Virus record (IMG/VR): IMGVR_UViG_3300018080_000233
Location: 1-52,051 of that record
From: a virus
DNA length: 52,051 bases
Reading direction: 5' to 3' (one strand)
Position 1 is the stretch's first letter, and each line of letters begins with the position of its first letter. The position numbers and the translations under genes were made by a program. Below the pieces are notes generated by a model. The model did no database searches and was not told the origin of the DNA. It was given only the letters and a program-made list of their open reading frames with translations. Of this stretch, positions 1,180 through 51,976 are shown piece after piece.

Positions 1180-3768
1180 ATGGCTAATGTACAGCACAAT
1201 ACTCTGGACGGTGTTGAGGTTCATACACCGTTCCGATGGGACGTGGCCGATGACGCGGCTCGTCTTGCTCTGGTTGTATCGGTAAGCGATATAAAGAAGT
1301 TGTGCTATGTTCAGGCCACAACCGGAGTCTGGATTCTGACTGGCGTAAGCCCGGCGACATGGAAGCAGGTTGACCTGGGAGCTGTCAGTACAGGCACAGT
1401 AAAAGTAACGGCGGCGGATACGGGTCTGGACTTTCTGGGTGCGAAAGTAGCCGCAGGCGGAGGTATCACACTCAATGTTCTGAATCCAGGCGGTAATGAA
1501 CAGCTTGAGATTTCTGCAAGTATTGGAGCAATAGATCATAATGCTCTTTTGAATACCCACAATCTGACAACAGACATTGATCACGATACAATCACAAATG
1601 CTCATAACTTAACCACAGACATTGATCATGACACACTCACGAATGCTCATAACTTAACCACAGACATTGATCATAATGCAATTACCAATACTCACAATCT
1701 GACGACCGACATTGACCATGACACAATCACAAACAATCACAATCTGACGACTGACATTGATCACGATACAATTACCAATACGCACAATCTGACAACAGAC
1801 ATTGATCATGACGCATTGACAAATTTCGTTCTTGCGGAACACATTGACTGGTCAATAAATGGACCGGAGACTCTGCATGACAATCGTGTGCCCGCTTCCT
1901 GCGTGACACAACATGAGGGAGTTATTGATCATAATGCTCTGACCAATACGCACAATCTCACGACTGATATTGACCACGACACAATCACGAATGCTCATAA
2001 TCTCACGACTGATATTGACCATGACGCTCTCACAAATTTTGTTGCCGCAGAGCATATAAACTGGACCGTGCCTGGCATTGAGGTTCTTGACGATAGTCGT
2101 GTGCCTGCGTCAAACGTATTGCAACATGAAGCGTCTATTGACCATGACAATCTGACCAATACTCACAATCTGACGACCGACATCAATCATAATACTCTGC
2201 TCAATTATCTGGCGGCTGAACACATAAACTGGAATATTAATGGAGCGGAAACCATTCATGACGGACGTGTGCCCGCGTCTAATGTCACGCAACATGAAGG
2301 ATCAATCGATCATAATAATCTTCAGAATACACACGACCTGACAACAGATATTGATCATGACACGATTACTAACAACCATAACCTGACAACAGATATTGAT
2401 CATGACACGCTTACGAATTATCTTGCGTCGGAGCACGTTGATTGGGCGGCGAATGGAGCGGAAACACTTCACGATAACAGAGTGGTTGCTTCTAATATTA
2501 CACAACATGAAGCGTCTATCGACCATGACAATCTCCTGAACAGTCATAACCTCACGACTGACATTGACCATGACGGCCTGCTCAATTTTGTTGCTAATGA
2601 GCACATTGACTGGTCAATATCAGGCCCGCAAACTCTTCACAATGCCAGAGTTACTCTTGCGAATGTGACACAACATGAAGCTAATATTGATCACGACGGC
2701 CTGGCGAATACTCACAATCTCACGACTGACATTGATCACAATACCATTCTGAACAATCACAACTTAACGACTGACATCAATCACGATACCATTCTGAACA
2801 ATCACAATCTGACAACCGATATTGACCATGACGCAATTAATAATTATGTTGCGGCTGAACATATAGCCTGGGCAGTTATTGGAGCGGAAACACTTCATAA
2901 CAGTCGGGTCACGGCTGGAAATGTGACACAGCACGTCGGGTCTATTGATCATGACCTGCTTCTGAATACACACAATCTCACGACAGATATTGATCACGAC
3001 GCATTGACAAACTATGTTGCGAATGAGCATATCGACTGGACTGTGACAGGAGCGGCGGATATACATGACGACAGAATAGGATCGACAAGTGTGACACAGC
3101 ACGTCGCTCTCATCAACCACAATTCTCTGCTCAATACACACAATCTCACGACAGATATTGATCACACAACGATAAGTAATATCGGAACAAATTCACATGC
3201 CACGATTGATACTCACCTGGCTTCGACTACAAATCCTCATTCGGTAACTGCGGCACAGGTCGGTAACACTACCGCACAGTGGAATGCCAATCAATTACAG
3301 GGCCGTGACGTTCAGAATGTCGCTCCGAATAATCTGGATGAACTGGTCTGGAGCACAGGCAATACAAGATGGGAGCCCAGAGCCGCTCGAATGGGCTGGA
3401 TGCTTCATGGAGGCGTCGACGGTGTCGGAGCTAACAATACGACTCCGATTTCAATGGGAACGAATGCGGCGAATAACGGTGTTCCTATGATCCGGGCCGG
3501 ACGAATTGTTGGAATATCGATTTCAATTAATACTCCATGTACCTCCGGTACTCTGGACGGACAGGTGTTGCTCAATGGAGTTGCACAGACAGGCGCGGGC
3601 GAGACCGTACAAATCGAATCAGTGACCAATACAACAGACAACTATCAGATAATTCCGACTCCGATTACTTATGCGGCTGGAGATGTAATTTATGCACAAA
3701 CAGTGACAGTCGGTTTTGCTCCGAATGGAGCGGACGCGACGGTGTGCGTTTTCTGTGAGGACACATAA
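1180..3768 (+). CDS. large repetitive tail fibre protein
   Basis: An 862-residue fibre. Residues 1-115 form a globular N-terminus ending in the GGGITLNVLNPGGNEQLEIS segment common before fibre shafts. Residues about 116-700 are a shaft made of roughly 15-residue units of type HNLTTDIDHDTITNA (17 HNLTTDI-like copies), broken by seven EHIDW...ETLHDNRVPAS modules. The last 150 residues (GWMLHGGVDGVG onward) look like a beta-sandwich tip, probably the receptor-binding or trimerisation head. His and Asp recur regularly, and such residues can bind metal along a trimer axis, as HxH motifs do in T4 gp37. ATG 1180 has an overlapping strong ribosome site. Two accessory genes follow directly. Confidence 0.9.
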   Translation: MANVQHNTLDGVEVHTPFRWDVADDAARLALVVSVSDIKKLCYVQATTGVWILTGVSPATWKQVDLGAVSTGTVKVTAADTGLDFLGAKVAAGGGITLNVLNPGGNEQLEISASIGAIDHNALLNTHNLTTDIDHDTITNAHNLTTDIDHDTLTNAHNLTTDIDHNAITNTHNLTTDIDHDTITNNHNLTTDIDHDTITNTHNLTTDIDHDALTNFVLAEHIDWSINGPETLHDNRVPASCVTQHEGVIDHNALTNTHNLTTDIDHDTITNAHNLTTDIDHDALTNFVAAEHINWTVPGIEVLDDSRVPASNVLQHEASIDHDNLTNTHNLTTDINHNTLLNYLAAEHINWNINGAETIHDGRVPASNVTQHEGSIDHNNLQNTHDLTTDIDHDTITNNHNLTTDIDHDTLTNYLASEHVDWAANGAETLHDNRVVASNITQHEASIDHDNLLNSHNLTTDIDHDGLLNFVANEHIDWSISGPQTLHNARVTLANVTQHEANIDHDGLANTHNLTTDIDHNTILNNHNLTTDINHDTILNNHNLTTDIDHDAINNYVAAEHIAWAVIGAETLHNSRVTAGNVTQHVGSIDHDLLLNTHNLTTDIDHDALTNYVANEHIDWTVTGAADIHDDRIGSTSVTQHVALINHNSLLNTHNLTTDIDHTTISNIGTNSHATIDTHLASTTNPHSVTAAQVGNTTAQWNANQLQGRDVQNVAPNNLDELVWSTGNTRWEPRAARMGWMLHGGVDGVGANNTTPISMGTNAANNGVPMIRAGRIVGISISINTPCTSGTLDGQVLLNGVAQTGAGETVQIESVTNTTDNYQIIPTPITYAAGDVIYAQTVTVGFAPNGADATVCVFCEDT
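1525..3170 (+). repeat. nested tandem repeats encoding the fibre shaft
   Basis: Degenerate direct repeats of about 45 bp encode the HNLTTDIDHDxxxN unit and are interspersed with seven longer units beginning at the EHIDW-coding segments. Neighbouring units differ mainly at third codon positions, so protein sequence is conserved more than DNA. The region from about 1550 to 1840 holds six short units in a row. Elsewhere one to three separate the longer modules. Such an arrangement can change length by recombination. Confidence 0.9.
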
Positions 3769-4194: not shown

Positions 4195-4499
4195 TGGAGA
4201 AGTTGATTGTATTGCCAATACTGCGAGACGGCTTGCCCGATAGCGGCGTCGTCCCTCACATTCGTATCAGAGATGCGGACACGAAGTCGGTTGAGGTCGA
4301 TTTTGATGCGATGGAAGAAGTCGGAGACGGCTGGTTCAGATATTATTTTCAGACATATAATCCAAAAAAGAATTATGTAGTAACAGTCGAGGTAGTAAAT
4401 TCGGAGGGTAATATTATTTATTATTTTGCCAGTAACGTGAGTTATGTCGAGGACATGAAATACGTCATTAAAGGCCCGGTAGCGAGGTTCAATCCATGA
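4194..4499 (+). CDS. small beta-rich virion-associated protein
   Basis: A 101-residue protein whose ATG overlaps the preceding TAA. Alternating hydrophobic strands (VPHIRIRDADTKSVEVDF, FRYYFQTYNPKKNYVVTVEV) suggest an immunoglobulin-like or related beta-sandwich. Its stop overlaps the start of the adaptor-like gene (ATGA). The next protein begins with a similar Ig-like segment, so the two may pack together in the neck or on fibres. The function is not established. Confidence 0.6.
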   Translation: MEKLIVLPILRDGLPDSGVVPHIRIRDADTKSVEVDFDAMEEVGDGWFRYYFQTYNPKKNYVVTVEVVNSEGNIIYYFASNVSYVEDMKYVIKGPVARFNP

Positions 4500-6220
4500 G
4501 TGCGGTTAAAAATCAAGAAATAGGTCAACAGGGAAGCACAATCACTCTGGATGTGTACTTCCATGAATTCGACGGAGGAGCTCTGGTCGATCCTGACACC
4601 CAGGTTGCTAACTATGAAATATTTGACCCGTCCGGTTCATCGCAAGAGACCGGTACGGGCACACGTCTCGGTCAGGGACGATACCAGGCTCAATTCGATA
4701 TTCCTGCGGCGGCGACAGTATCGGATCAGTGGAAAATCCAGTGGTCGGTAGTTATCGGAGGTCAGGGCGTCATTGACTATGAATACTTCCGTGTTGTTGC
4801 GGCGGGTTCAATACAATTCAATGAGGAAGAATATCGCAAGGGCAAATCGTTCGCTAATGAAGACCGGACAAGCAGTTATCATGCTCCGAATTGGGGTTAT
4901 ATCATAACTCCTGACGAACTCCGCTACATGGTTGGATTCGGAACAAAGCTCGTATCTCCTGACGCTTCACAGACTTATGACGACAACATGCTTCAGTATT
5001 ATATTGACGCGGCTATTGGAGTTTTTGCTAATGACCTGCGAATCGATATTTTTCCTCATGTTATTACTCATCAGGCTCCCAGAGACGCTGTGACAGGACT
5101 CCGGGGAGAACGAACTGACCTTCCCGCAGATTACATTACATTTATCAATTCACTTACTGACGAGCAGGCAGACCTGCGAATTATTGAAAAGGGTTATCCT
5201 TATCGACAGCCTCCGGCCAAAAAGAATTATATGTATATGAGGTTGCGGAATAGACCCGTTCGGTCAGTTGACAAAGTGGTCATGGTCGATCCTGTACAGC
5301 AAACACTTGTTGATTTGCTTCCTTACACGCAGGAGGAGCTCGGAATGGGAGGCACACTCCAGTTTACATTCTCGCAGTTGTCAAACATTCCTGTATTCCT
5401 GGGAATGCTCTCACCATTTCAGTATCCATTCCGGGATTACCCGAATGCATTTCTGATTGATTACAAGACGGGCTATGAGAATTCAAGAAATGTGCCGAAA
5501 GACCTTGTCGAAGTAATACGAATGCTCGCAGGCATTATGCTCCTGAATGATTTTGGGGACGGCAAGAGTCCTGGTCTGGCAAGCGCGTCGGTCAATTTGA
5601 ATAGCATATCAGAATCATTTGGCACGACGCAAAGTGCAAGTATCGGGCCGCGAGATGAAGTCGATCTCATGAATCCGAGGGGAGGTTTTCTGTCAGTACC
5701 TATTGGAATTCTTTACAAGCGAGTAAAGGACAAACTTATTGATCCGACGAATTATAAGGTCAGAGCAGTCAATCCTCTCAATGTTCTTGATATACAGTGG
5801 AAGCCATTGCTTGACGTGGTCGAGCATGTTGTCCCTGAAAAATTCTGTTATGAAATATCGACTCCCGATGCACACATCACGGTAACAGAGGATCATTCAT
5901 TATTTTATGTTGATCGATTCGGGCTCACACAAAAACGCGGCGATGAGTTTTTTGTCGGAGAATCAATTGCCTGCGTGACAAGAGCTGGAGTTGTTACTAA
6001 TGACAGGGTCGTCAAAGTTGAGCCTGTGAAAGTGCCGGGAGGAAAGGTGTACGACCTCTCGGTTGCAGACTTCCAGAATTTCATTGTGAACAATAGAATA
6101 ATTGCTCACAATACGAATGCTCTGTATGGAGCTCGAATCGGAGAGTGGTTGAAAACGATTGCGATATGGTGGAAGCGCAACAAATACAAATACGGTGTTC
6201 AATTTATAGGTGTTTTATGA
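4496..6220 (+). CDS. neck/adaptor-like structural protein interrupted by a mini-intein
   Basis: The 574-residue precursor starts at ATG 4496 (ATGA overlap). Residues 1-105 form an Ig-like beta domain. Residues about 130-370 carry the pattern of phage head-tail adaptor proteins (YIITPDELRYMVGFG, then YYIDAAIGVFANDLRIDIFP, then RLRNRPVRSVDKVVMVDP). Residues 382-539 are a self-splicing element, described separately. After Thr540 a basic helical tail resumes (TNALYGARIGEWLKTIAIWW). Splicing would give a 416-residue protein joining GTTQSA to TNALYG. A neck or connector role is inferred from this pattern and from the neighbouring head-tail joining genes. The adaptor assignment is family-level only. 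Confidence 0.7.
   Translation: MSAVKNQEIGQQGSTITLDVYFHEFDGGALVDPDTQVANYEIFDPSGSSQETGTGTRLGQGRYQAQFDIPAAATVSDQWKIQWSVVIGGQGVIDYEYFRVVAAGSIQFNEEEYRKGKSFANEDRTSSYHAPNWGYIITPDELRYMVGFGTKLVSPDASQTYDDNMLQYYIDAAIGVFANDLRIDIFPHVITHQAPRDAVTGLRGERTDLPADYITFINSLTDEQADLRIIEKGYPYRQPPAKKNYMYMRLRNRPVRSVDKVVMVDPVQQTLVDLLPYTQEELGMGGTLQFTFSQLSNIPVFLGMLSPFQYPFRDYPNAFLIDYKTGYENSRNVPKDLVEVIRMLAGIMLLNDFGDGKSPGLASASVNLNSISESFGTTQSASIGPRDEVDLMNPRGGFLSVPIGILYKRVKDKLIDPTNYKVRAVNPLNVLDIQWKPLLDVVEHVVPEKFCYEISTPDAHITVTEDHSLFYVDRFGLTQKRGDEFFVGESIACVTRAGVVTNDRVVKVEPVKVPGGKVYDLSVADFQNFIVNNRIIAHNTNALYGARIGEWLKTIAIWWKRNKYKYGVQFIGVL
5639..6112 (+). mobile_element. 158-residue Ser1 mini-intein (no homing endonuclease)
   Basis: In-frame intein from Ser382 to Asn539 of the host protein. 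Block A is Ser-I-G-P-R-D-E-V-D-L, followed by a Gly-Gly turn and VPIG. Block B is at intein residues 74-91 with the TxxH signature T83-E-D-H86. Block F is KVYDLSVADFQNFIVNN. Block G is IIAHN followed by Thr at +1. Ser1, the block B His, the penultimate His, the terminal Asn and Thr+1 are all present, so it should splice. The block F position often occupied by His is Gln. At 158 residues there is no room for a homing endonuclease. The N-terminal boundary was placed by motif, so it could be off by a few residues. Confidence 0.82.
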
Positions 6221-6393
6221 GATTTGTAAGATTTGCAAAATTAATAGTCCTGGTTTTACCTGGATACATCAAAGCCAGGATAAGCGGGACGGTCCTGCGA
6301 TTCAGAATAGTGTGTGAGGTACTATGGATAGTAAGTGAATGCCCGTCAATGACAGCACAAATACTCGAAGGTGGAAAACATGGAAAAGGATAA
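6217..6393 (+). CDS. small basic hydrophobic protein
   Basis: A 58-residue protein starting at ATG 6217, overlapping the previous stop (ATGA) and overlapping the next gene by 14 bases. It has a Leu/Val-rich N-terminal half (RFVRFAKLIVLVLPGYIKAR) and several Arg. It could be a small membrane peptide or simply a coupling ORF, since its end carries the ribosome site (AAGGTGG) for the gene at 6380. No family recognised. Confidence 0.45.
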   Translation: MRFVRFAKLIVLVLPGYIKARISGTVLRFRIVCEVLWIVSECPSMTAQILEGGKHGKG

Positions 6394-7582
6394 GAAAGCA
6401 GAAGCAATGTCACACCCGGATAAACCAGGAGCGGGAGCAGAGAAGCGCAAGAAAGTCAAAGACCCGCAGGACAAGGTCGAGGTTGTCATGTCAGAATTCA
6501 AGAGAGGAACGCTCCGCTCTGGCTCTGGCGAGAAAGTGACTGACAGGTCACAGGCCCTCGCAATCGCAATGTCGGAATCTGGACAGTCAAAGAAAAAGCT
6601 CAAGGGCTGTGATAAGATTAAAAAGGCGGAGGAGATGAGCCCTGGAGAACTCCTCACGTCTATTGTTGAACTCGAACTCATGCTCAAGGCGAAGTATGAA
6701 AGTAAAAAGCGCGGACCTGACGGGAAATGGATTTATAAATATACAAAGCCCGGAACTAAACAGCCGGGGAGTCAGGACTACCAGAATCGAATTAAGCAGA
6801 TCAGACAGAGCGGTAGTGTTTCCGAGCACGGCCCTGGTTATGATCGAGCGAAAGAACTGGCAGTCGAATTGTCAAAAAAGCACGGAAAGAAAGTCAGTGA
6901 AATACTGGACGACATTCTGGGAGAAAATGTGCCTATTAATAAAGCACAGGAGACGAATGAAATGAACGAGAATACTGAATATCTGGAATCATTAATCAAA
7001 GCAGGCCCGACAAAGTACAAGCGTAAGTGGCGCGGCAAAGATGGAAAGTGGCGGTACGAATACGAAAAACCGAAAAAGGGCAAAGAAAAAGCCGGAGAAG
7101 AAAGACCGGGAGTGCGTCCTCATTCAGAAAAAGAGTTGAAAGAATTGTCACAAATTCAAAAAGACCGGGATATACAGGCAATGGAATTGAACATGCCAGG
7201 AAAGCGCAAGGGCCGCTCCGAATTCGATACGCCGCAGGATTATCACGAATATATCCGAAGCGAATTCGACAAATACGTTGACACGGTCAAAAAGAAATCT
7301 GGCGAGGAGATAAAGACAGGTGTACTACCACAAAAATTGGTAGACTACAAGAAAGAACATCATGAAATTGCAATTGATAAACTATCTAAAATGCCTCTCA
7401 AAGAATTGAGACGGCGACAGGACATGCTCCGGTCGTCCAGAAAGAAAGCACTGGAACAAAAAAATGAAACGCTTATAAAAGAACTTGATGTTGCTGAAAA
7501 GCATCTTATTCATGCTATTGACAGGAAAGAATTCGGAAAAGCAGAAAGCGACATTAAGAAACTAACTGGATTACTGAAATGA
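6380..7582 (+). CDS. highly charged structural/morphogenesis protein with DUF6496-like N-terminus
   Basis: A 400-residue protein, extremely rich in Lys and Glu. ATG 6380 is chosen over GTG 6371 because AAGGTGG lies seven bases before it. Residues about 34-70 (VMSEFKRGTLRSGSG, then QALAIAMSESG) match the pattern I associate with the small DUF6496 family of phage and bacterial proteins. Two copies of a G-P/K-DGKW-Y-Y-K-P motif occur near residues 115-125 and 217-232, a type of short aromatic repeat often seen in phage head or maturation proteins. The remainder is helical. It lies among neck genes, so an assembly or virion-internal role is plausible but unproven. Confidence 0.6.
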   Translation: MEKDKKAEAMSHPDKPGAGAEKRKKVKDPQDKVEVVMSEFKRGTLRSGSGEKVTDRSQALAIAMSESGQSKKKLKGCDKIKKAEEMSPGELLTSIVELELMLKAKYESKKRGPDGKWIYKYTKPGTKQPGSQDYQNRIKQIRQSGSVSEHGPGYDRAKELAVELSKKHGKKVSEILDDILGENVPINKAQETNEMNENTEYLESLIKAGPTKYKRKWRGKDGKWRYEYEKPKKGKEKAGEERPGVRPHSEKELKELSQIQKDRDIQAMELNMPGKRKGRSEFDTPQDYHEYIRSEFDKYVDTVKKKSGEEIKTGVLPQKLVDYKKEHHEIAIDKLSKMPLKELRRRQDMLRSSRKKALEQKNETLIKELDVAEKHLIHAIDRKEFGKAESDIKKLTGLLK

Positions 7583-9974: not shown

Positions 9975-11195
9975 ATGGAAGATCGTCACCTGGGAAGAAA
10001 TAGTCCGGTCTTCACGATTGAAGGACACCCGGATAAATTTATCAATCTGATAAATTATCATGGTGTCCTTGCGCGTATCGTGAGAGCCAGGAAATGTCCC
10101 TGTGGTGGAAGTCAGGGCGGGCCGGTCATGCACTGCAAGCTCTGTCAGGGTGACGGATTCGTATATGATTACCAGAGGAAAATGCTTCAACTTGACGAGG
10201 ACTCTGACGTAAGAGGCCAGAGTCATATTGTCTTTCCATTTCGTGTCCCCGTGATTGAGCCCCTCAAAGTTGAAAGACTTATTGCGTCAGAGCAGGGAGG
10301 AATCGCAAAGTACAATATCGTATCATTCGATACGGAATCAATAACAATATCCAGTAATGGAATACATCGGCTTCCACGTCATTATGAAAAGATGAGGGTT
10401 TCGTATTACTTCGACCGCTTTACGAAAGTGACTGGAGAACGTGTGACGGTTAATCCCTCCCGACGGCTTCTGACAACGACGACAACGCTTTATAATGGTG
10501 AGCACAGATTTGGCAATGCTCAAAACATGCACGGTGACGTGACTATTGTCGATAAGATATACCATGAAGACACGGGCTACGAATTCACAGATTATACTTA
10601 CAAGCGCAATCAAATACATCTCAATAAGTCAGAACCAGAGCCCGAAGTCGGCAAGATACTGGTGGACTATTACTATGCTCCTCCCGTGCGAGTGCTTCCC
10701 GCAGACCTGGACTTCCGGGAAGAGAAAGAAACATGGACATCAAATATTACATCAGGACTGACACGAATCGGAGTCGAGCCCTGGTGGGAACTCGGACCAG
10801 GTGATCTTATCACGCTCCTCCCATTCGAGCTGTTCAGGGATCAGGCTCTTGTGCATGGAGCTCATGGAATTGACAGGCTTGTCGAATTCGATGTTGCTTA
10901 TCTTGACGACGAGATATTTGATCAGGACGGGGAGCGGTATCGTAAGAACGAAGATTTTGAATTACAGGACTTTCACAATATTGTCTGGATTGGCAACCAG
11001 CCGAATCCGGGCAAGCACATTTCTGTGCGGTACAGTTATCGACCGACCTATGTCATTTTTCAGGATCAGCCAGTACCGAATGCAATGGAGAACAAGAAAT
11101 TTCCGCTTACATTCAATGTGAAGCTATACAACCGAACAATTCACAAAGAGGAGAAAGTGTTCAAGCCAATCGAATTCCCAGGTCTTAATTTATGA
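9975..11195 (+). CDS. structural protein of the neck/head-tail region with zinc-knuckle
   Basis: A 406-residue protein. Near residue 41 a CPCGG...CKLC pair suggests a small zinc knuckle of the kind found in several phage neck proteins. The rest is beta-rich, with repeated VDYYYAPPVRVLP, ISVRYSYRPTYVI-type strands. It is followed by HK97-gp10-like and tail-completion-like genes through ATGA and eight-base overlaps, indicating a shared neck operon. No enzyme motif is seen. A neck or collar role is inferred from position. Confidence 0.6.
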   Translation: MEDRHLGRNSPVFTIEGHPDKFINLINYHGVLARIVRARKCPCGGSQGGPVMHCKLCQGDGFVYDYQRKMLQLDEDSDVRGQSHIVFPFRVPVIEPLKVERLIASEQGGIAKYNIVSFDTESITISSNGIHRLPRHYEKMRVSYYFDRFTKVTGERVTVNPSRRLLTTTTTLYNGEHRFGNAQNMHGDVTIVDKIYHEDTGYEFTDYTYKRNQIHLNKSEPEPEVGKILVDYYYAPPVRVLPADLDFREEKETWTSNITSGLTRIGVEPWWELGPGDLITLLPFELFRDQALVHGAHGIDRLVEFDVAYLDDEIFDQDGERYRKNEDFELQDFHNIVWIGNQPNPGKHISVRYSYRPTYVIFQDQPVPNAMENKKFPLTFNVKLYNRTIHKEEKVFKPIEFPGLNL

Positions 11196-13156: not shown

Positions 13157-13206
13157 AAACCTGCGATGAGGCCGAATGACGGTCTTGTTGCGGGTTTTTT
13201 ATTTTA
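13157..13206 (+). terminator. long hairpin with U-tract just before the sheath gene
   Basis: A 17-bp stem (13157-13173 with 13181-13197, including G-U pairs), loop GAATGAC, then TTTATTTT. It ends only 15 bases before the sheath start and almost abuts the GAGGAG ribosome site. Upstream, GCAGG at 13142-13146 could instead pair with CCTGC at 13160-13164, which would break the stem. CGGGT (13108-13112) with ACCCG (13119-13123) forms another small hairpin. It may end the neck transcript, act as an attenuator, or stabilise a processed sheath mRNA. I see no convincing -10 box for the TTGACT at 13083. Confidence 0.8.
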
Positions 13207-13220
13207 GAGGAGTAAGAACT

Positions 13221-14996
13221 ATGGGAGTAACAAAGCAAAAATTCGCCGGGATTGAAACGAATATTCCGGGCGCGTACACTAAATCGAATTATCTCCAGAG
13301 TCCTGGGGCTCTCGGTGCAGTCAGCAATGCCGTGCTTGTTATCGGATCAGCTAACGGCGGCATTCCTTATAATGCAACGGGAAAGTCAGACGCGGAGAAA
13401 ATCAACAAATTCAGCTCGACGGGAGAATTACAGGATATGCTCCGGGGAGGCCCTGGATACTATATGTCCGAATTCTATATGATCCCGACCAAAAACGAGA
13501 ATCTGAATAAACCATCGGAGGTCTATTTCATCAGAGTAGACCCGGCAATTCCTGGATCAGCAACGCTCCAGGACGCGCTGTTAAACGACATCATTGATAT
13601 TACAACGACCCGGTACGGTTCGCTTGCAAATCAATTGAGCCGCAAAATTGAAGCGGCAACGACTCTGGGCCATAAAGTGACCGTGAAATTTCAGGGTAAT
13701 ACGATTATCCAGAGAGACAATGTCGGATTCGAGTATATGGAAATTCAATATACCGGAGCGGCGGTTACGTCGACAATGAATATTACAGCGACACAGCTTG
13801 ACACTACCTGTGCGGCTGTTCCTGCGGACGACCTTGTCCTTCTATTCGCAGACTTCGAGAAGCTCGGAGGCCTCGTTGCTTACATCAATGAGCAACCGAA
13901 TTATACGTGCACACTCAAAGCTGATGCGGACACTGACACAACCACGTTCGACGCGGTTACGGCACAGGACATTAAGACACTGCCGTACGTTTGTGTAGCA
14001 CACGTCGAGGCCCTCATTCAATTCCTGACGAATGAGACTCTGGGTGAGCTTACTGCGTCTCTTCATGCTGGCGCGGTCAGAACGGATGTCACTAACGACG
14101 CAAATTTTATATTTATGTCGTCAGGCACTAACGGAGTTGTTACGAATACACAGTGGGCCGGAGCCCTTGAACTTGCGGCAAAGTTTAATTTCAATCACAT
14201 TCTTCCGGCAAGCGGTGACGCTTCTGTTCATGCAATGGTGGTCAATCATTGTACCGAATATAGTAACATTGAGAATAAGAAGAATCGTTCATGCGGTCTC
14301 GGAGCATTGTCGTCAATTGCAAATAATGACGCAACCATGATCGGTGAAATGATTGCTCTCAACAGCTCAAGATCGGAATACCATATCACGGAATTTGACA
14401 GACCCGATGTATACAACCAGGGACAGAACGCAACATTCGCTCCGTTCTATGGAGCGGCTCTGACCGCAGGAATAAGGTTTGCAAATCATATCACAACGTC
14501 TCCGACGTTCAAAGATGTGTATGTGACCAAAGTCTCTCGTATCTATTCGAGAACAGAGAAGAAAGACCTCATTCAAGCTGGAGCGACAATGTTCGAGCAA
14601 CAGGAACGCGGATTTGTCGTTGTTCATAATGTATCGACTTACCAGGGCACAAATCTCCTGCTCAATGTTCCTGCGGGACTGCGAACCTGCGATTTTATCA
14701 CTCTGGACCTCCAGGTGAAAATTGAGGCGCGTCTTGCTCGAATGGTCCAGGCTCCGACCGCAATCGTCATTGCGGACATGGTGAACTGGTTGTCGTCAAG
14801 TGTGCTTCCCGGATACAAGGAAGCAGGTTATCTTACCGATGATCCGAATAGCGGTGATCCGGCCTTCTCGGACATATCGTTTCAGTTGATTGGAGACCGA
14901 TTCAATTTTGGATTCAGAGGAATTGTTCCGGTTATGATTCATTATGCATTCATAACGCAGGATTTTGCAGTTGTCGGATTGAGAAATGCGGCATAA
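13221..14996 (+). CDS. tail sheath protein
   Basis: A 591-residue contractile sheath. ATG 13221 follows GAGGAG at ideal distance; an upstream in-frame start lies inside the terminator hairpin. The N-terminal segment GIETNIPGAYTKSNYLQSPG and the C-terminal subtilase-type sheath domain (RIYSRTEKKDLIQAGATMFEQQERGFVVVHNVSTYQG, in two parts) show the expected layout. The C-terminal LVKIEARLARMVQ-like helix and the final YAFITQDFAVVGLRN strand also fit. An extra beta/alpha domain at residues about 174-235 has a sequence relative in the baseplate-J protein. It polymerises around the tube and contracts on infection. Confidence 0.88.
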   Translation: MGVTKQKFAGIETNIPGAYTKSNYLQSPGALGAVSNAVLVIGSANGGIPYNATGKSDAEKINKFSSTGELQDMLRGGPGYYMSEFYMIPTKNENLNKPSEVYFIRVDPAIPGSATLQDALLNDIIDITTTRYGSLANQLSRKIEAATTLGHKVTVKFQGNTIIQRDNVGFEYMEIQYTGAAVTSTMNITATQLDTTCAAVPADDLVLLFADFEKLGGLVAYINEQPNYTCTLKADADTDTTTFDAVTAQDIKTLPYVCVAHVEALIQFLTNETLGELTASLHAGAVRTDVTNDANFIFMSSGTNGVVTNTQWAGALELAAKFNFNHILPASGDASVHAMVVNHCTEYSNIENKKNRSCGLGALSSIANNDATMIGEMIALNSSRSEYHITEFDRPDVYNQGQNATFAPFYGAALTAGIRFANHITTSPTFKDVYVTKVSRIYSRTEKKDLIQAGATMFEQQERGFVVVHNVSTYQGTNLLLNVPAGLRTCDFITLDLQVKIEARLARMVQAPTAIVIADMVNWLSSSVLPGYKEAGYLTDDPNSGDPAFSDISFQLIGDRFNFGFRGIVPVMIHYAFITQDFAVVGLRNAA

Positions 14997-44636: not shown

Positions 44637-45037
44637 AAGACGGAACATTGGTTACGGTGCATGACTTGAATACCGATAACCGTTTAATTGGTTATGTAAT
44701 GAACTGGAAAAACGAATCGTTTGAATTGTACCAGGGTAGCAGATTGATTGGAGACCATTTTCAACCAGGCGGTATGTGTTGGATATTTAATGAACAGAAT
44801 CCTTACGACGAGCTTGAGGTTGTTGTGGTAATGACTCAAAAAGGTTATGACGAGATTCAGGAGAGAGCCGTCGAGGGATACAAAGAGAAGTTGACGTCTA
44901 AAATTTCTCGACATGAAATGCCGTTTAACGTCCCAATTCCAGGCGCAAAATTTAGCACAGAATTTATCACACCTGTCAGTCAATTTCTTGACGAGCTTGA
45001 GAGGTTTGCAGATATACGTAAAAAATTAATTGATTAA
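44633..45037 (+). CDS. uncharacterised protein after recA
   Basis: A 134-residue protein (ATGA overlap with recA; GGGAGGAAG upstream). N-terminal strands (LVTVHDLNTDNRLIGYVMNW), then a helical C-terminus. It is followed closely by the SbcDC-like gene, so a repair accessory role is possible. No family recognised. Confidence 0.6.
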   Translation: MKDGTLVTVHDLNTDNRLIGYVMNWKNESFELYQGSRLIGDHFQPGGMCWIFNEQNPYDELEVVVVMTQKGYDEIQERAVEGYKEKLTSKISRHEMPFNVPIPGAKFSTEFITPVSQFLDELERFADIRKKLID

Positions 45038-45056
45038 AGCAATTGGAGGTTGCAAC

Positions 45057-48026
45057 ATGAGCAAGTATGTTATTAGTGCCGATTGGCATATCGGACTTTC
45101 AGAAGGGCATGACGAATGTATTCGTCGGGGTGTTGAACACATCGCAGAGGTCTGTGAAAAAGAGGACGCTGACTTCATTTTCGCAGGCGATTTATTTGAC
45201 CGACCGAGACCGTCGCCGGAGGACTACAGACTGGCGGGAGATTGTCTGGGACTGATCGAATGCAAACAGTATATCATTTCTGGCAATCATGATCGTACCG
45301 GATCAAAAGGTGTGACTGTTCATGCCTTTCAGAGCAATATGTTTACACGACATGCGAATGTGTATATTGCCGGAGATGAACCGGCAAGACATGAGCCGCG
45401 AGATCATGAATTAATACTTGCACCATTTGTGCATGATCAGGAAGGCCGGACTTACGGTGACGTGATAATTGAGCACTGCAAGGAGATAGGAAGTCCCGAT
45501 GAGGATATTCCCAGAATACTCGTTGCTCACGCGGATATTCCCGGAGCGATGTATGGAGCGGAGCAAGAAATTCAGCTCGGTCGTGTTGGTTCACTTCCTC
45601 CCATGCATGAATACGTTGACGTGATAATTGCCGGGCATATTCACAGACATCAGACATTCCGATATGGGCCGTGCACTGTGATTTATCCGGGGGCTCTCTC
45701 ACGGACGAGCCATACAGAGGAGAAAGAATACAAGGGATTTATTCTATTCGATACGGAAACGCAGGACGTCAAGTTTGTACGCCGCAAGGACGCACGGAAG
45801 TATCACACCGTCAAAATAAAGTGGCCGGGACAATTCCGAATGCCTGCGGCTCTGGCGAAGGCTGACGGTTGTGTCCGCTTGCAGATTGACGCGGCCAGGA
45901 GATACTCCGGCATGATCGACCGCAGAGCTATTGAGAAAAAACTGGCACAGAAATTTGATGAGGTTAAACTGGAAATCAATTATGAACGGAAAGTGAGCGC
46001 GTCCGCAAAGGCAGTGGCAACAGGCCGAGGCTTCGACGATTATGAGGAGCTCTGGCTTAAAGAGAATGTTGCAAGCAGGCTGACGACTGTGCGTAAATTA
46101 TTGATGAAATATCTCAAACAGGTGGACACGGGGGAGTCCCTGTCAGGGTCGAGAACGGGAGTCATTCTGAAACGTGTCAGGATCAAAAATTATCAGTCAA
46201 TCGATGAGGTTGAAATAGACCTCACGTCTAATGATTGTGTCGGAATTCTGGGAGAGATAGACGGCAAGCTCACGAAGTCAAACGGAGCTGGCAAGTCGTC
46301 GATACTTGAGGCAATAAGATTTGCCATGAACGGTGAGACACGCTGGTCAAAAAATGAGAAGGCTATCCGGCGCGGGACGGATAGTGCCGACGTCGAGATT
46401 GACATGGAGAACGGCTCCGGGGTTTATACCGTGCATCGAACGCTCAAAGCCAGGGGGGCTACAGCCTGGATCAGGCATGACGGTGAACAGCTTGCCAGAG
46501 GCCCGAACGAGGTCACAAAATGGTTTGAAGATAATTTCGGAGCGTCAAAGAAATTCTTTGATACTCTTATCTGGATTGGCACGAAGCGGAGGTCTGCATT
46601 ACTGGAAGCAAGGCCGCAGGAACGTCTAAAAGCAATTCAAGAGCCCCTCCCTCTGGGCCGCTACGAGAAAGCTCTCAAATTGATTCGTTCCGAGCGGACC
46701 TCGGCAAAGAGCAAGGTCGACGCGGCTCAAGGCGTGATTGAAGCGTTCGGCAACATGAAGCAATCCGATGTGACGAAGGCGGAGACGGAATTATCGGGGC
46801 TCACTAATAAGCGGAAAATGATTGAGGATCAGATTAAGGTATTGAATACCAAACTCAAAAGTCATGACATAATTGCCAGAGATCAGGACAAACTCGATGA
46901 GCTTATTGACGAGCTGGAAGAATGTCGGGACGAATTCAAAGATTGCCCCTGGCTCAAGCAGTCACCTGACGTGTACGTGCGGGAGACAAGAAAAGTGCTG
47001 GACGGATTGGATTCAGTATCCAGTCAAATGCTTGCGGATTTGTCACAGCTTGACGCCGGAATAAAGCTGGCAGAATTGAAGCGGAACGAAGCACAGGAAG
47101 CTATTGACACATTATTCGGTAAGTCACAATGTCCGACGTGCAATACGAAGCTCAAGCCTGACGCATATAAAGCGACAATGCAGGAGAAGAATGACGAGTT
47201 AAAAAAGCACAGTGATGATTGCGAGATTTATATTCAGAAATATCATGAGCTGGACATAAAATTCAAATCTAACAAAAAGAAAATCGATGATCTTAATGGT
47301 CGAAAATTGTGGGCTGAAGGACTTGTCAAGACCCAGAAGCGGATTGATACGATTCAGCCTCGTATTGATGAATTGAGGGCGAAGCATGACTATTCAGCTC
47401 TCAAGGGAATAAAAAAGCTGGAAAAGGATCATGAGACCCTGGAAAGGAATCGACGGACAACGTCGGATGCAATTTCTGACAAGCGGGCTGAAATTGATAG
47501 TATCAAGAAAGACCTGGAACGCTTGCAGAAAGCAAAGACGGAGCTCAAAAGTGCGGAGCAATTGAGCCAGGATTTGAATGTTGTGTATGAAGCATGTTCG
47601 CCGCGAGGAATTCCCTCTCTGGTTTGTAGTGAAATAATCAAAGAAATCAATGAAACGATACCGGACGTTGTTGAGGATTATAATTTCTGGCAGGATATTC
47701 AGGTTGCAATCTGGGAGATGACTGACGGTAATATCGTGATTGAAGCGGCAATTGACGACGAAGAATTGAACGAGGTCGAGGGCCTGTCAGAAGGTGAACG
47801 GGAGATTGTCAATCTGATTCTCATGTCGACATGGAAACGGGTGCTTGAGAGTCTGCTCGGTAGCTCATATAATTTCATCTTGATTGATGAGGCTCTGGAT
47901 AAGATGGACGAGGAGAACAGGAAGAGAGCTGTCAAGTATTACAGGCGGGTCAAACAGCAATCGCTGGTAATATCGCACAGTAATATCAGGGACTCATTCA
48001 GCAAGACGTTGATTGTAAGCCGATGA
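45057..48026 (+). CDS. single-chain SbcD-SbcC (Mre11-Rad50) nuclease
   Basis: A 989-residue fusion; ATG 45057 with TTGGAGGT is preferred over TTG 45030. Residues 1-360 are the nuclease with all metal motifs: SADWHIG, AGDLFD (43-48), SGNHD (75-79), VAHAD (156-160), AGHIHRH (192-198). Residues 367-989 form an SbcC/Rad50 ATPase: Walker A NGAGKSS (409-415), coiled coils around a CPTC zinc hook (692-695), signature LSEGERE (910-916), Walker B ILIDEA (941-946). Bacteria and T4 (gp47/gp46) encode these as two proteins. One chain would fix the 1:1 ratio. Likely role: processing double-strand breaks and hairpins for RecA. Confidence 0.92.
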   Translation: MSKYVISADWHIGLSEGHDECIRRGVEHIAEVCEKEDADFIFAGDLFDRPRPSPEDYRLAGDCLGLIECKQYIISGNHDRTGSKGVTVHAFQSNMFTRHANVYIAGDEPARHEPRDHELILAPFVHDQEGRTYGDVIIEHCKEIGSPDEDIPRILVAHADIPGAMYGAEQEIQLGRVGSLPPMHEYVDVIIAGHIHRHQTFRYGPCTVIYPGALSRTSHTEEKEYKGFILFDTETQDVKFVRRKDARKYHTVKIKWPGQFRMPAALAKADGCVRLQIDAARRYSGMIDRRAIEKKLAQKFDEVKLEINYERKVSASAKAVATGRGFDDYEELWLKENVASRLTTVRKLLMKYLKQVDTGESLSGSRTGVILKRVRIKNYQSIDEVEIDLTSNDCVGILGEIDGKLTKSNGAGKSSILEAIRFAMNGETRWSKNEKAIRRGTDSADVEIDMENGSGVYTVHRTLKARGATAWIRHDGEQLARGPNEVTKWFEDNFGASKKFFDTLIWIGTKRRSALLEARPQERLKAIQEPLPLGRYEKALKLIRSERTSAKSKVDAAQGVIEAFGNMKQSDVTKAETELSGLTNKRKMIEDQIKVLNTKLKSHDIIARDQDKLDELIDELEECRDEFKDCPWLKQSPDVYVRETRKVLDGLDSVSSQMLADLSQLDAGIKLAELKRNEAQEAIDTLFGKSQCPTCNTKLKPDAYKATMQEKNDELKKHSDDCEIYIQKYHELDIKFKSNKKKIDDLNGRKLWAEGLVKTQKRIDTIQPRIDELRAKHDYSALKGIKKLEKDHETLERNRRTTSDAISDKRAEIDSIKKDLERLQKAKTELKSAEQLSQDLNVVYEACSPRGIPSLVCSEIIKEINETIPDVVEDYNFWQDIQVAIWEMTDGNIVIEAAIDDEELNEVEGLSEGEREIVNLILMSTWKRVLESLLGSSYNFILIDEALDKMDEENRKRAVKYYRRVKQQSLVISHSNIRDSFSKTLIVSR

Positions 48027-49215: not shown

Positions 49216-49445
49216 TGGCACGGCAGGGGACAAAAGGAATGCTGTATTATTCCGACGACGGAGACCAGGAATTTTTTGACGGCTGTGATAAGCTGGAGGA
49301 AATGATTGACTCTGGCGACATGGACTGGTGTCTGGACACTCTGGAATCGATTCGGGAGTGGGCCGAAGAAAAGGAAATGATTACCGAAGCTCAATACGAT
49401 TCAATCAATAATTTCTGGGACAAGTATCAGGAGAAACAAAATTAG
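49215..49445 (+). CDS. small acidic protein before the polymerase
   Basis: A 76-residue acidic protein (TAATG overlap) with several aromatic residues (GMLYYSDDGDQEFFDG, then DTLESIREW). It overlaps the polymerase start by one base, so the two are translated together. Function unknown. Confidence 0.6.
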   Translation: MARQGTKGMLYYSDDGDQEFFDGCDKLEEMIDSGDMDWCLDTLESIREWAEEKEMITEAQYDSINNFWDKYQEKQN

Positions 49446-51976
49446 TGGCTCGCAGTAAGAAAGCTGACATGCAGTTGGTCGAATATGATGACGGCCAATT
49501 TTGTCGGAGATGTGAGGGCCTGACGACGTCGGGTCTTAATTGTTGCCCAGGCCGATTCGCTGACGACAGAGATCACAAAAAAGCCGATATTGCGATTATC
49601 GGTGAGGCTCCAGGTCAGGAAGAGGACCGGCTGGAGAAGTTTTTTGTCGGGCCTGCGGGTCAGGTCTTGAACGAATGGATTACTCACGCGGGTCTCGGAG
49701 GCCGAAAAATATGGTTGGATAATGTTGTGAGATGCACTCTTCCCGGAGACCTGGGAGACATGAATTCCTCGCAGGCCAATAAGCTCATAAGGAATTGCAA
49801 GCCGTATTTATTCAGGAATCTCGAACGCTTGAAGCCGAAGGTTATTGTCACGGTCGGCAACAAAGCTCTCAAAGCAATGACCGACCTGGCGGGAATCACG
49901 CGCTGGCGCGGACGGCTCCTGAAGTACCCGGCTCTGGGAGCATATATTGTACCAACATTTCACCCGGCGGCTGTGCTTCATGCTCACAGACCTCTCTGGG
50001 AGGAGCAGGCGGTCAGCGATCTCATTCTGGCGCGTAAGACACTACAGGCAAAGAAGCTGACGTCCAGGGCTCGCAGGTTTGTCTGGGTCAGGACCGAGAA
50101 GGAATTTCGGGCCTGTATGGACGAGATGAGCAAGGCTGACGAGATTGCACTTGACTTCGAGACGACAGGTCTTAACTTCCGAACGGACAAGATTATCGGA
50201 CTGATTCTTTGTGCTTCCCATACGAAGGCATATTTTATTCCATTCCTTCCGGTGATCAGTGAAGTAGTCAGTGACGAGAGCAAGGGTGACGTCATTTACA
50301 AATGGGTGGACGGTGACTATGTTATAAAGCGTCAATGGCTGTCAGCTATCAAGAGAGTCGTTGAGAATAGACGCAAGCTCAAGATACTGCATAATGCGGG
50401 TTTTGATCTTTTGTGGTTTATGACTCTCGGATGGGACTGCTATCCGATTTATGATACAATGATTGTGAACAGTATTATTGATCATATAGATAATGGTCTC
50501 AAGGATTTGAGCTATATTTACACTGACTTTGCCGGATACGACGACGACATTATTCAATATACCGGACGCGGAAATAAAAAACAATATATCAAAGTGCCGC
50601 CTCCGTTACTTGCAAAGTATGGGTGTCTTGACGGTATTGCAACATTTATTGTGAAAAAGGAGCACACAAAGGTTCTCCAAAAGAACAGAGCTCTTGCCCG
50701 GCTCTGTGCCGAACATAATGAGCTCCGATATAATCTGACGACAATGGAATACTACGGGATCAGGACTGCAAAGACTCACGCCAGTAAATTGAAGACACAG
50801 TATCTTGAGGAGACGCAGGCAATTGTCAAGCGGCTTCGACGCAAACTGAAATTGCCCGATCTGAATCCGAATGCCTCCGCTCAATTGATTGATGCGTTCT
50901 GGGGACCGAATGGGCCTCTGAATATTCGGGATTATAGAGGAGTAAAGAAGCCCTCGACGGACGCCAGGATACTCAAGGTAGTAAAGCGTCAGTGTAAATC
51001 AAAGAAGGCTCTTGCGCTTATCAGTGACCTCCAGGATTACAGAGTCATGTCAAAGAGGGTATCGACCTATCTGGATAAATTTCTTGAGGTTCATGAGGCC
51101 GGAGGGGACGGGAGAATTCGTACACATTTCACGCAAGATATTGCGCGTACCGGCAGACTATCTTCTCGCGCTCCGGCCTTGCAGAATATACCGCGCTTCG
51201 ATGCGATGAGAAATTGTTTTATTGCCGCTCCTGGACGGTCGTTTGTTGAACACGACTACAAACAGCTTGAAATATGTATTGCGGCGGAGGAATCTCTCGA
51301 TCCGACAATGCTGGAAATTATCAATACTGGAGGGGACTATCACAGCTATGTCGGAAGCACGACAATGACTGCTCCCGACGGTAACAGGTATCCGAAGCAA
51401 TTATTTATAACAGATAAGGAAATGAGGGCGGCGGCGAAAATCATTTCCTTTTCTGTTATTTATGGCAAGACGCCGCAGGGCCTTGCGAATGATTTGAATT
51501 GTAGTATTGATGCGGCGGCTCACATAATTGTTCAGCTTACCAGAGCGGCGTTTCCTGTTCTCGGTGAATGGATGGATCAGCAATACGCTTTTCTCCGTGA
51601 TCATGGTTATGTCAGGACAATATTCGGTCGAGAGCTTCCGATTGCAAATTATGATTCGGCTGACTCATTTGAGCTGGAAGCGGCGGAACGTCGAGCAATC
51701 AATTATCCGATTCAGAGCGGTGCGTCCGATTGTGTTGTAATTGGAATTAATCGGGTCGCACAGAAGCTCCGAAGGGTGAAGCTCCCGGTCGATCTCCGGC
51801 TGACGGTACACGATTCGCTCCTGGCCGAAGTGGACGACGACTATGTTGAGGAGTATGCGGCTCTGGCAAAAAAGGAAATGGAGAGGCGAATACCGGAAAT
51901 AAAAAGAGTGAAATTGAGTGTTGACGTTGCGGTCGGTAAAGCCTGGGGTCGCATGAAAGAAGTCAATGTTAATTAG
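49445..51976 (+). CDS. polA: uracil-DNA glycosylase (family 4) fused to DNA polymerase I
   Basis: An 843-residue fusion with GTG start (TAGTG overlap). Residues 1-205 are a family 4 UDG: iron-sulfur Cys20/23/97/118, GEAPGQEEDR (53-62), VPTFHPAAVL with His173. Residues 210-410 are a 3'-5' exonuclease: LDFETTG with D237/E239, NAGFD (317-321), Y392-x3-D396. Residues about 420-843 are a family A polymerase: motif A EHDYKQLEI (D604), motif B RAAAKIISFSVIYG with R661, K665, F669, Y673, motif C VHDS with D790 (Ser replaces the usual Glu). There is no 5' nuclease. Likely the replicative polymerase, able to excise uracil on the same chain. Confidence 0.93.
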   Translation: MARSKKADMQLVEYDDGQFCRRCEGLTTSGLNCCPGRFADDRDHKKADIAIIGEAPGQEEDRLEKFFVGPAGQVLNEWITHAGLGGRKIWLDNVVRCTLPGDLGDMNSSQANKLIRNCKPYLFRNLERLKPKVIVTVGNKALKAMTDLAGITRWRGRLLKYPALGAYIVPTFHPAAVLHAHRPLWEEQAVSDLILARKTLQAKKLTSRARRFVWVRTEKEFRACMDEMSKADEIALDFETTGLNFRTDKIIGLILCASHTKAYFIPFLPVISEVVSDESKGDVIYKWVDGDYVIKRQWLSAIKRVVENRRKLKILHNAGFDLLWFMTLGWDCYPIYDTMIVNSIIDHIDNGLKDLSYIYTDFAGYDDDIIQYTGRGNKKQYIKVPPPLLAKYGCLDGIATFIVKKEHTKVLQKNRALARLCAEHNELRYNLTTMEYYGIRTAKTHASKLKTQYLEETQAIVKRLRRKLKLPDLNPNASAQLIDAFWGPNGPLNIRDYRGVKKPSTDARILKVVKRQCKSKKALALISDLQDYRVMSKRVSTYLDKFLEVHEAGGDGRIRTHFTQDIARTGRLSSRAPALQNIPRFDAMRNCFIAAPGRSFVEHDYKQLEICIAAEESLDPTMLEIINTGGDYHSYVGSTTMTAPDGNRYPKQLFITDKEMRAAAKIISFSVIYGKTPQGLANDLNCSIDAAAHIIVQLTRAAFPVLGEWMDQQYAFLRDHGYVRTIFGRELPIANYDSADSFELEAAERRAINYPIQSGASDCVVIGINRVAQKLRRVKLPVDLRLTVHDSLLAEVDDDYVEEYAALAKKEMERRIPEIKRVKLSVDVAVGKAWGRMKEVNVN

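Follow-up and report, generated by a model that had tools for sequence, protein, structure and literature searches.

A mini-intein without an endonuclease in a predicted phage neck adaptor, and a related intein one codon away in a distant homologue

Gene content and features of the locus

The window, by which we mean the whole 52,051-nucleotide stretch of the viral record IMGVR_UViG_3300018080_000233, contains a 574-residue ORF in which a predicted phage neck (portal-to-tail) adaptor is interrupted by a 158-residue mini-intein; the carrier is a phage of the spirochaete type. The features of this ORF are listed below with the basis of each in brackets, L007 being an intein-free homologue and L050 a second, homologous carrier.

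4496–6220, plus strand: precursor, predicted neck adaptor split by the intein (ORF of 574 aa; PHROG 772, E 1.8e-32; PHROG 442 head-tail adaptor, E 1e-8)
4496–4810, plus strand: extra N-terminal domain, about aa 1–105, predicted to be beta-rich and Ig-like (AlphaFold2 strands 15–101)
4823–5638, plus strand: N-extein, predicted neck adaptor core, aa 110–381, C-terminal end GTTQSA (alignment to empty homologues; L007 fold)
5639–6112, plus strand: mini-intein of class 1 type, 158 aa, aa 382–539 (PF14890, TIGR01443 and PDB inteins; missing from 100 homologues)
5639–5641, plus strand: Ser1 codon AGT, predicted first nucleophile, Ser382 (sequence; boundary set by empty homologues)
5885–5896, plus strand: block B TEDH, of the form T-x-x-H (sequence; same in L050, ITVTEDHSLF)
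6047–6082, plus strand: block F VYDLSVADFQNF, with Gln where His is common (sequence; L050 counterpart MYDLCVEDNENF)
6098–6112, plus strand: block G IIAHN, with the penultimate His and terminal Asn (sequence; VLAHN in L050)
6113–6115, plus strand: Thr+1 codon ACG, predicted second nucleophile and first C-extein residue, Thr540 (T in 77/102 family members, E in 25/102)
6113–6217, plus strand: C-extein of 35 aa, TNALYGARIG...FIGVL, predicted adaptor C-terminal helix (empty homologues; helix 266–287 in the L007 model)

Translation of 4496–6220 reproduced the originally predicted length of 574 residues, and excision of residues 382–539 leaves the expected 416, with GTTQSA joined to TNALYGARIGEW. 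The inserted module scored above cut-off with Pfam PF14890 Intein_splicing (41.1 bits, cut-off 35.8; E 2e-10) and NCBIfam TIGR01443 intein_Cterm (22.8 bits, cut-off 15.6), and under the cut-off of 24.5 with NCBIfam TIGR01445 intein_Nterm (18.9 bits), block A (SIGPRDEVDL) being divergent. Among solved structures the CDC21 intein (chain 6rpq, E 2.5e-6) is the best match, and the nearest such relatives are archaeal inteins. The class 1 motif set is complete (Ser1, TEDH, VYDL, HN and Thr+1), while the marks of class 3 (a WCT triplet, a block F Cys and no nucleophile at position 1) do not fit an element with Asp in block F and Ser at position 1. The original prediction, made from the letters alone, of a Ser1 mini-intein at 5639–6112 was thus correct to the residue, and the motifs that it quoted are all present (Ser at the N junction, TxxH, VYDLSVADFQNF and IIAHN followed by Thr), including the Gln in place of the common block F His. 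Pfam and NCBIfam family searches found no endonuclease domain in the 158 residues, again as predicted, and the element is not in its present form a homing intein. Codon usage and GC content of the intein are inside the range of the phage genome and the ORF is intact; this likeness in composition suggests that the insertion was not very recent, or that the donor genome was similar. A PHROG 18112 'recombinase' label was rejected, the match being to residues 508–546, i.e. the intein C-terminus.

Other ORFs in the window include an 862-aa protein (1180–3768, plus strand) just upstream of the neck genes, with many near-identical repeats like HNLTTDIDHDTITN, and a 403-aa ORF (6371–7582, plus strand; DUF6496) with two repeats, RGPDGKWIYKY and RGKDGKWRYEY. 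The latter sits between the window neck gene and a 143-aa gene, the likely counterpart of which is directly 3′ of the neck gene in the homologous loci L007, L009 and L010. Further downstream are a 998-aa ORF (45030–48026, plus strand), which resembles SbcD (phosphoesterase, aa 9–307) fused to SbcC (ATPase, aa 300–996), and an 843-aa family A DNA polymerase with a 3′–5′ exonuclease domain (49445–51976, plus strand), whose N-terminus is a uracil-DNA glycosylase superfamily domain (PF03167, E 6e-24).

Identity of the interrupted protein

In the AlphaFold model of the precursor the exteins are usable and the intein part has no confident structure (pLDDT ~33), because a single sequence covered that part; two rows from annotated phage records were left out of the structure-prediction alignment. 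Foldseek matches of this model were mostly Ig-like domains, and since the search was dominated by the N-terminal domain, the empty homologue L007 (52–53% identical) was modelled on a 41-row alignment (pLDDT 82). The L007 model matched the phage 812 neck (8q01_b, E 1e-10 and 2e-10, TM 0.69), the GTA neck (E 1.9e-4), DT57C neck chains and, weakly, T4 gp13, as well as viral models that carry a head-tail connector annotation. The Ig-like N-terminal domain of the window precursor is missing from its nearest homologues, L007 and L009; the neck protein of L010 also has an N-terminal extension.

Gene order points the same way. In L007 and L050 the neck gene has the major head protein gene (PHROG 752) on its upstream side and a PHROG 1004/3738 gene on its downstream side, and the window neck gene is upstream of a PHROG 1004/3738 protein (9975–11195) and the tail sheath (13176–14996). 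The L007 fold and gene order together support assignment of the host protein as a neck adaptor of the HK97 gp6, SPP1 gp15 and phage 812 type, in line with the neck/adaptor-like protein first proposed. PHROG searches with the extein returned 772 'tail fiber' and, more weakly, 442 'head-tail adaptor'; the 'tail fiber protein' label, which agrees with the annotation of phage LE1, was rejected, as fold and gene order indicate a neck protein. On family labels alone the protein would pass for a tail fibre of 574 aa that includes a recombinase-like segment, whereas the predicted mature protein is a 416-aa neck adaptor.

Insertion site and second carrier

The family, collected from annotated phages (tblastn), viral-contig scans and a genome scan, has 103 distinct members after removal of duplicates: two carriers, 100 uninterrupted members and one ending before the site. 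Inteins are therefore sporadic (2/102 members with an intact site), and all 100 empty members are contiguous exactly at SA/T or SA/E (slash, cut point), so that the comparison with insert-free homologues proposed in advance bears out the predicted junction. When the precursor was compared with annotated phages by tblastn, the alignment ended at residue 381–382 in LE1-type Leptospira phages, whose proteins cross the junction ungapped (LE1, STTQSA/TSSMYGARI); the closest empty homologue, L007 (about 53% identity over 279 columns), reads SESFNTTMSA/TNAMYGARI. The insertion can be placed exactly because empty homologues and splicing chemistry independently give the same boundary.

The top-scoring ten-column conservation block of the family starts at the Ser-Ala directly before the cut, and both inteins are within that decapeptide. 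The L007 model places the site in a loop between the last strand (250–253) and the C-terminal helix (266–287), a low-confidence loop that is perhaps ordered only in the assembled neck. An insert of 158 residues at this position is unlikely to be compatible with the neck ring, and because the intein breaks the most conserved decapeptide, ahead of the C-terminal helix, the unspliced precursor should not form a normal neck.

A genome scan with the intein gave one relative, L050, in the Spirochaetales MAG JAQQAP010000038, where the homologous neck gene (489 aa) reads ...FSSTQSAT/SIAGSSLV...VLAHN/SAYFGAR.... The insert is a 134-aa mini-intein with 39% identity to the window intein over 108 aa (blastp E 1e-17), and the exteins of the two neck proteins are 32% identical. 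Rejoined, the L050 exteins read SSTQSATSAYFGAR, in agreement with the empty relatives of L050 (SSTQSATSAYYGAR; 64–69% identity over the N-extein). The two insertion sites are one codon apart (SA/T in the window, SAT/S in L050), and the window site shifted by one codon would fail, because the next residue is Asn and position +1 needs a nucleophile. The L050 intein keeps the catalytic set (TEDH, YDL, AHN and Ser+1), with Glu at the block F Gln position, and the retention of these residues despite divergence to 39% argues for selection on splicing. In the maximum-likelihood tree a branch supported at 100/100 separates the halves in which the two carriers lie; each carrier adjoins empty relatives, and two label changes are needed for the carrier state. 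Related inteins may have been inserted or transferred twice, or an old intein may have been lost many times and shifted by one codon. With related mini-inteins at sites one codon apart in deeply separated branches, and around a hundred empty alleles, the family offers a case for intein targeting, site shift and persistence.

Splicing, origin and comparison with known inteins

Class 1 inteins splice by an N–O shift, transesterification to the +1 residue, Asn cyclisation and an O–N shift. In the window intein, Ser382 would attack the preceding peptide bond (N–O shift), Thr540 would take the N-extein by transesterification and Asn539 would cyclise, aided by the penultimate His538; an O–N shift would then free the joined 416-residue adaptor (...GTTQSA-TNALYGAR...) for assembly on the portal. 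Ser1 with Thr+1 is a less reactive pairing than one based on Cys; the combination probably has a precedent in a Thermococcus polymerase intein. Loss of the block F His should be tolerable because the penultimate His is present; a block F His can in turn substitute for the penultimate one (PMC5050341).

We consider it very probable that the gene encodes a neck adaptor with a class 1 mini-intein that lacks an endonuclease and would splice constitutively before neck assembly. Splicing is probably fast and constitutive, since a normal neck should require the spliced protein. The window intein most likely derives from a once mobile homing intein and was retained because only its precise removal would be tolerated. 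The sporadic distribution and the location within the most conserved decapeptide are as expected of an ordinary mobile intein after loss of the endonuclease. The original suggestion that virion assembly could be coupled to splicing conditions found no support.

The divergent block A, the block F Gln, the lack of an endonuclease and the single sequence known for the window allele could also be signs of a degenerate intein that does not splice or only cleaves, the phage record being a defective genome or the insert being tolerated. We regard this as improbable: the residues for every step are retained in an open ORF, the near-invariant motif before the C-terminal helix makes it unlikely that a retained 158-aa domain is tolerated, and the diverged L050 intein has the same residues. 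Slightly less probable again is a conditional intein, whose slow or cue-responsive splicing would time neck assembly. It would suit a structural host protein that is required late, and tuned rates are possible in published phage inteins (PMC5050341), but no conserved cue-sensing feature was seen in the window intein, its catalytic centre is without the Cys nucleophile of the redox-control type, and 100 relatives manage without an intein. We give an equally low rating to the proposal that inteins of spirochaete phages repeatedly target the conserved C-terminal loop of the neck adaptor and that splicing is a checkpoint delaying neck assembly until late infection; if this were true, the intein would be a functional part of morphogenesis. 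The weak match of L050 to Pfam pretoxin-HINT (E 2e-4, below cut-off) would suit a Hint domain of the bacterial intein-like (BIL) or Hedgehog type, able to cleave but not to ligate, a reading that we judge highly improbable and the least likely of these alternatives, given the conserved site, the +1 nucleophile in both carriers, the in-frame conserved C-extein and the empty homologues. BIL domains are, moreover, typically found in variable secreted proteins.

Phage inteins are best known from terminases, polymerases and nucleotide enzymes. The expectation that an intein in a connector-like protein would be unusual holds in part: inteins of the portal protein (PORT) are on record for Cluster C1 mycobacteriophages (PMC5050341), while no neck-adaptor intein was found reported in the open full-text papers searched. 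The PORT inteins are likewise in a connector-region virion protein, but theirs is the portal, unrelated to the neck adaptor. Mycobacteriophage TerL1-a and TerL1-b (PMC5050341) are also a pair whose sites, within a strongly conserved motif, differ by one residue; there the site is the ATPase P-loop, whereas the neck site is a structural loop and the neck inteins have no endonuclease. The phiCbK TerL intein (PMC3556154) is similarly a phage intein with boundaries drawn from empty homologues, but differs in its length (341 aa), its terminase host and the Pro at its N junction. Archaeal class 1 mini-inteins (CDC21 6rpq, Pol-II) share the Hint module, blocks A, B, F and G, the HN end and a length of 130–170 aa; the window intein differs from them in its location in a predicted phage neck adaptor, its Ser1 with Thr+1 and its block F Gln. 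What is new is the neck adaptor as host protein and the second example at an adjacent site, the kind of element being already known, if rather rare. This extends the list of intein-bearing phage proteins to the neck adaptor. Small mini-inteins with a Ser1/Thr+1 or Ser1/Ser+1 pair are candidate protein ligation tools.

Searches for further relatives of the window intein gave no match by tblastn against phages and plasmids. Viral contigs, scanned for close relatives first with this intein and then with both inteins aligned, gave no confirmed relative. The junction DNA pattern had three matches over all viral contigs, all due to chance (short frames, not inteins). Searched with the intein alignment, Spirochaetota genomes yielded only that of L050, plus weak Hint-like matches in one other. 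These matches (L070, L071 and L072) are on one contig of the Spirochaetota genome G005 and are possibly bacterial intein-like domains; a neck gene of this genome, L052, is free of inteins.
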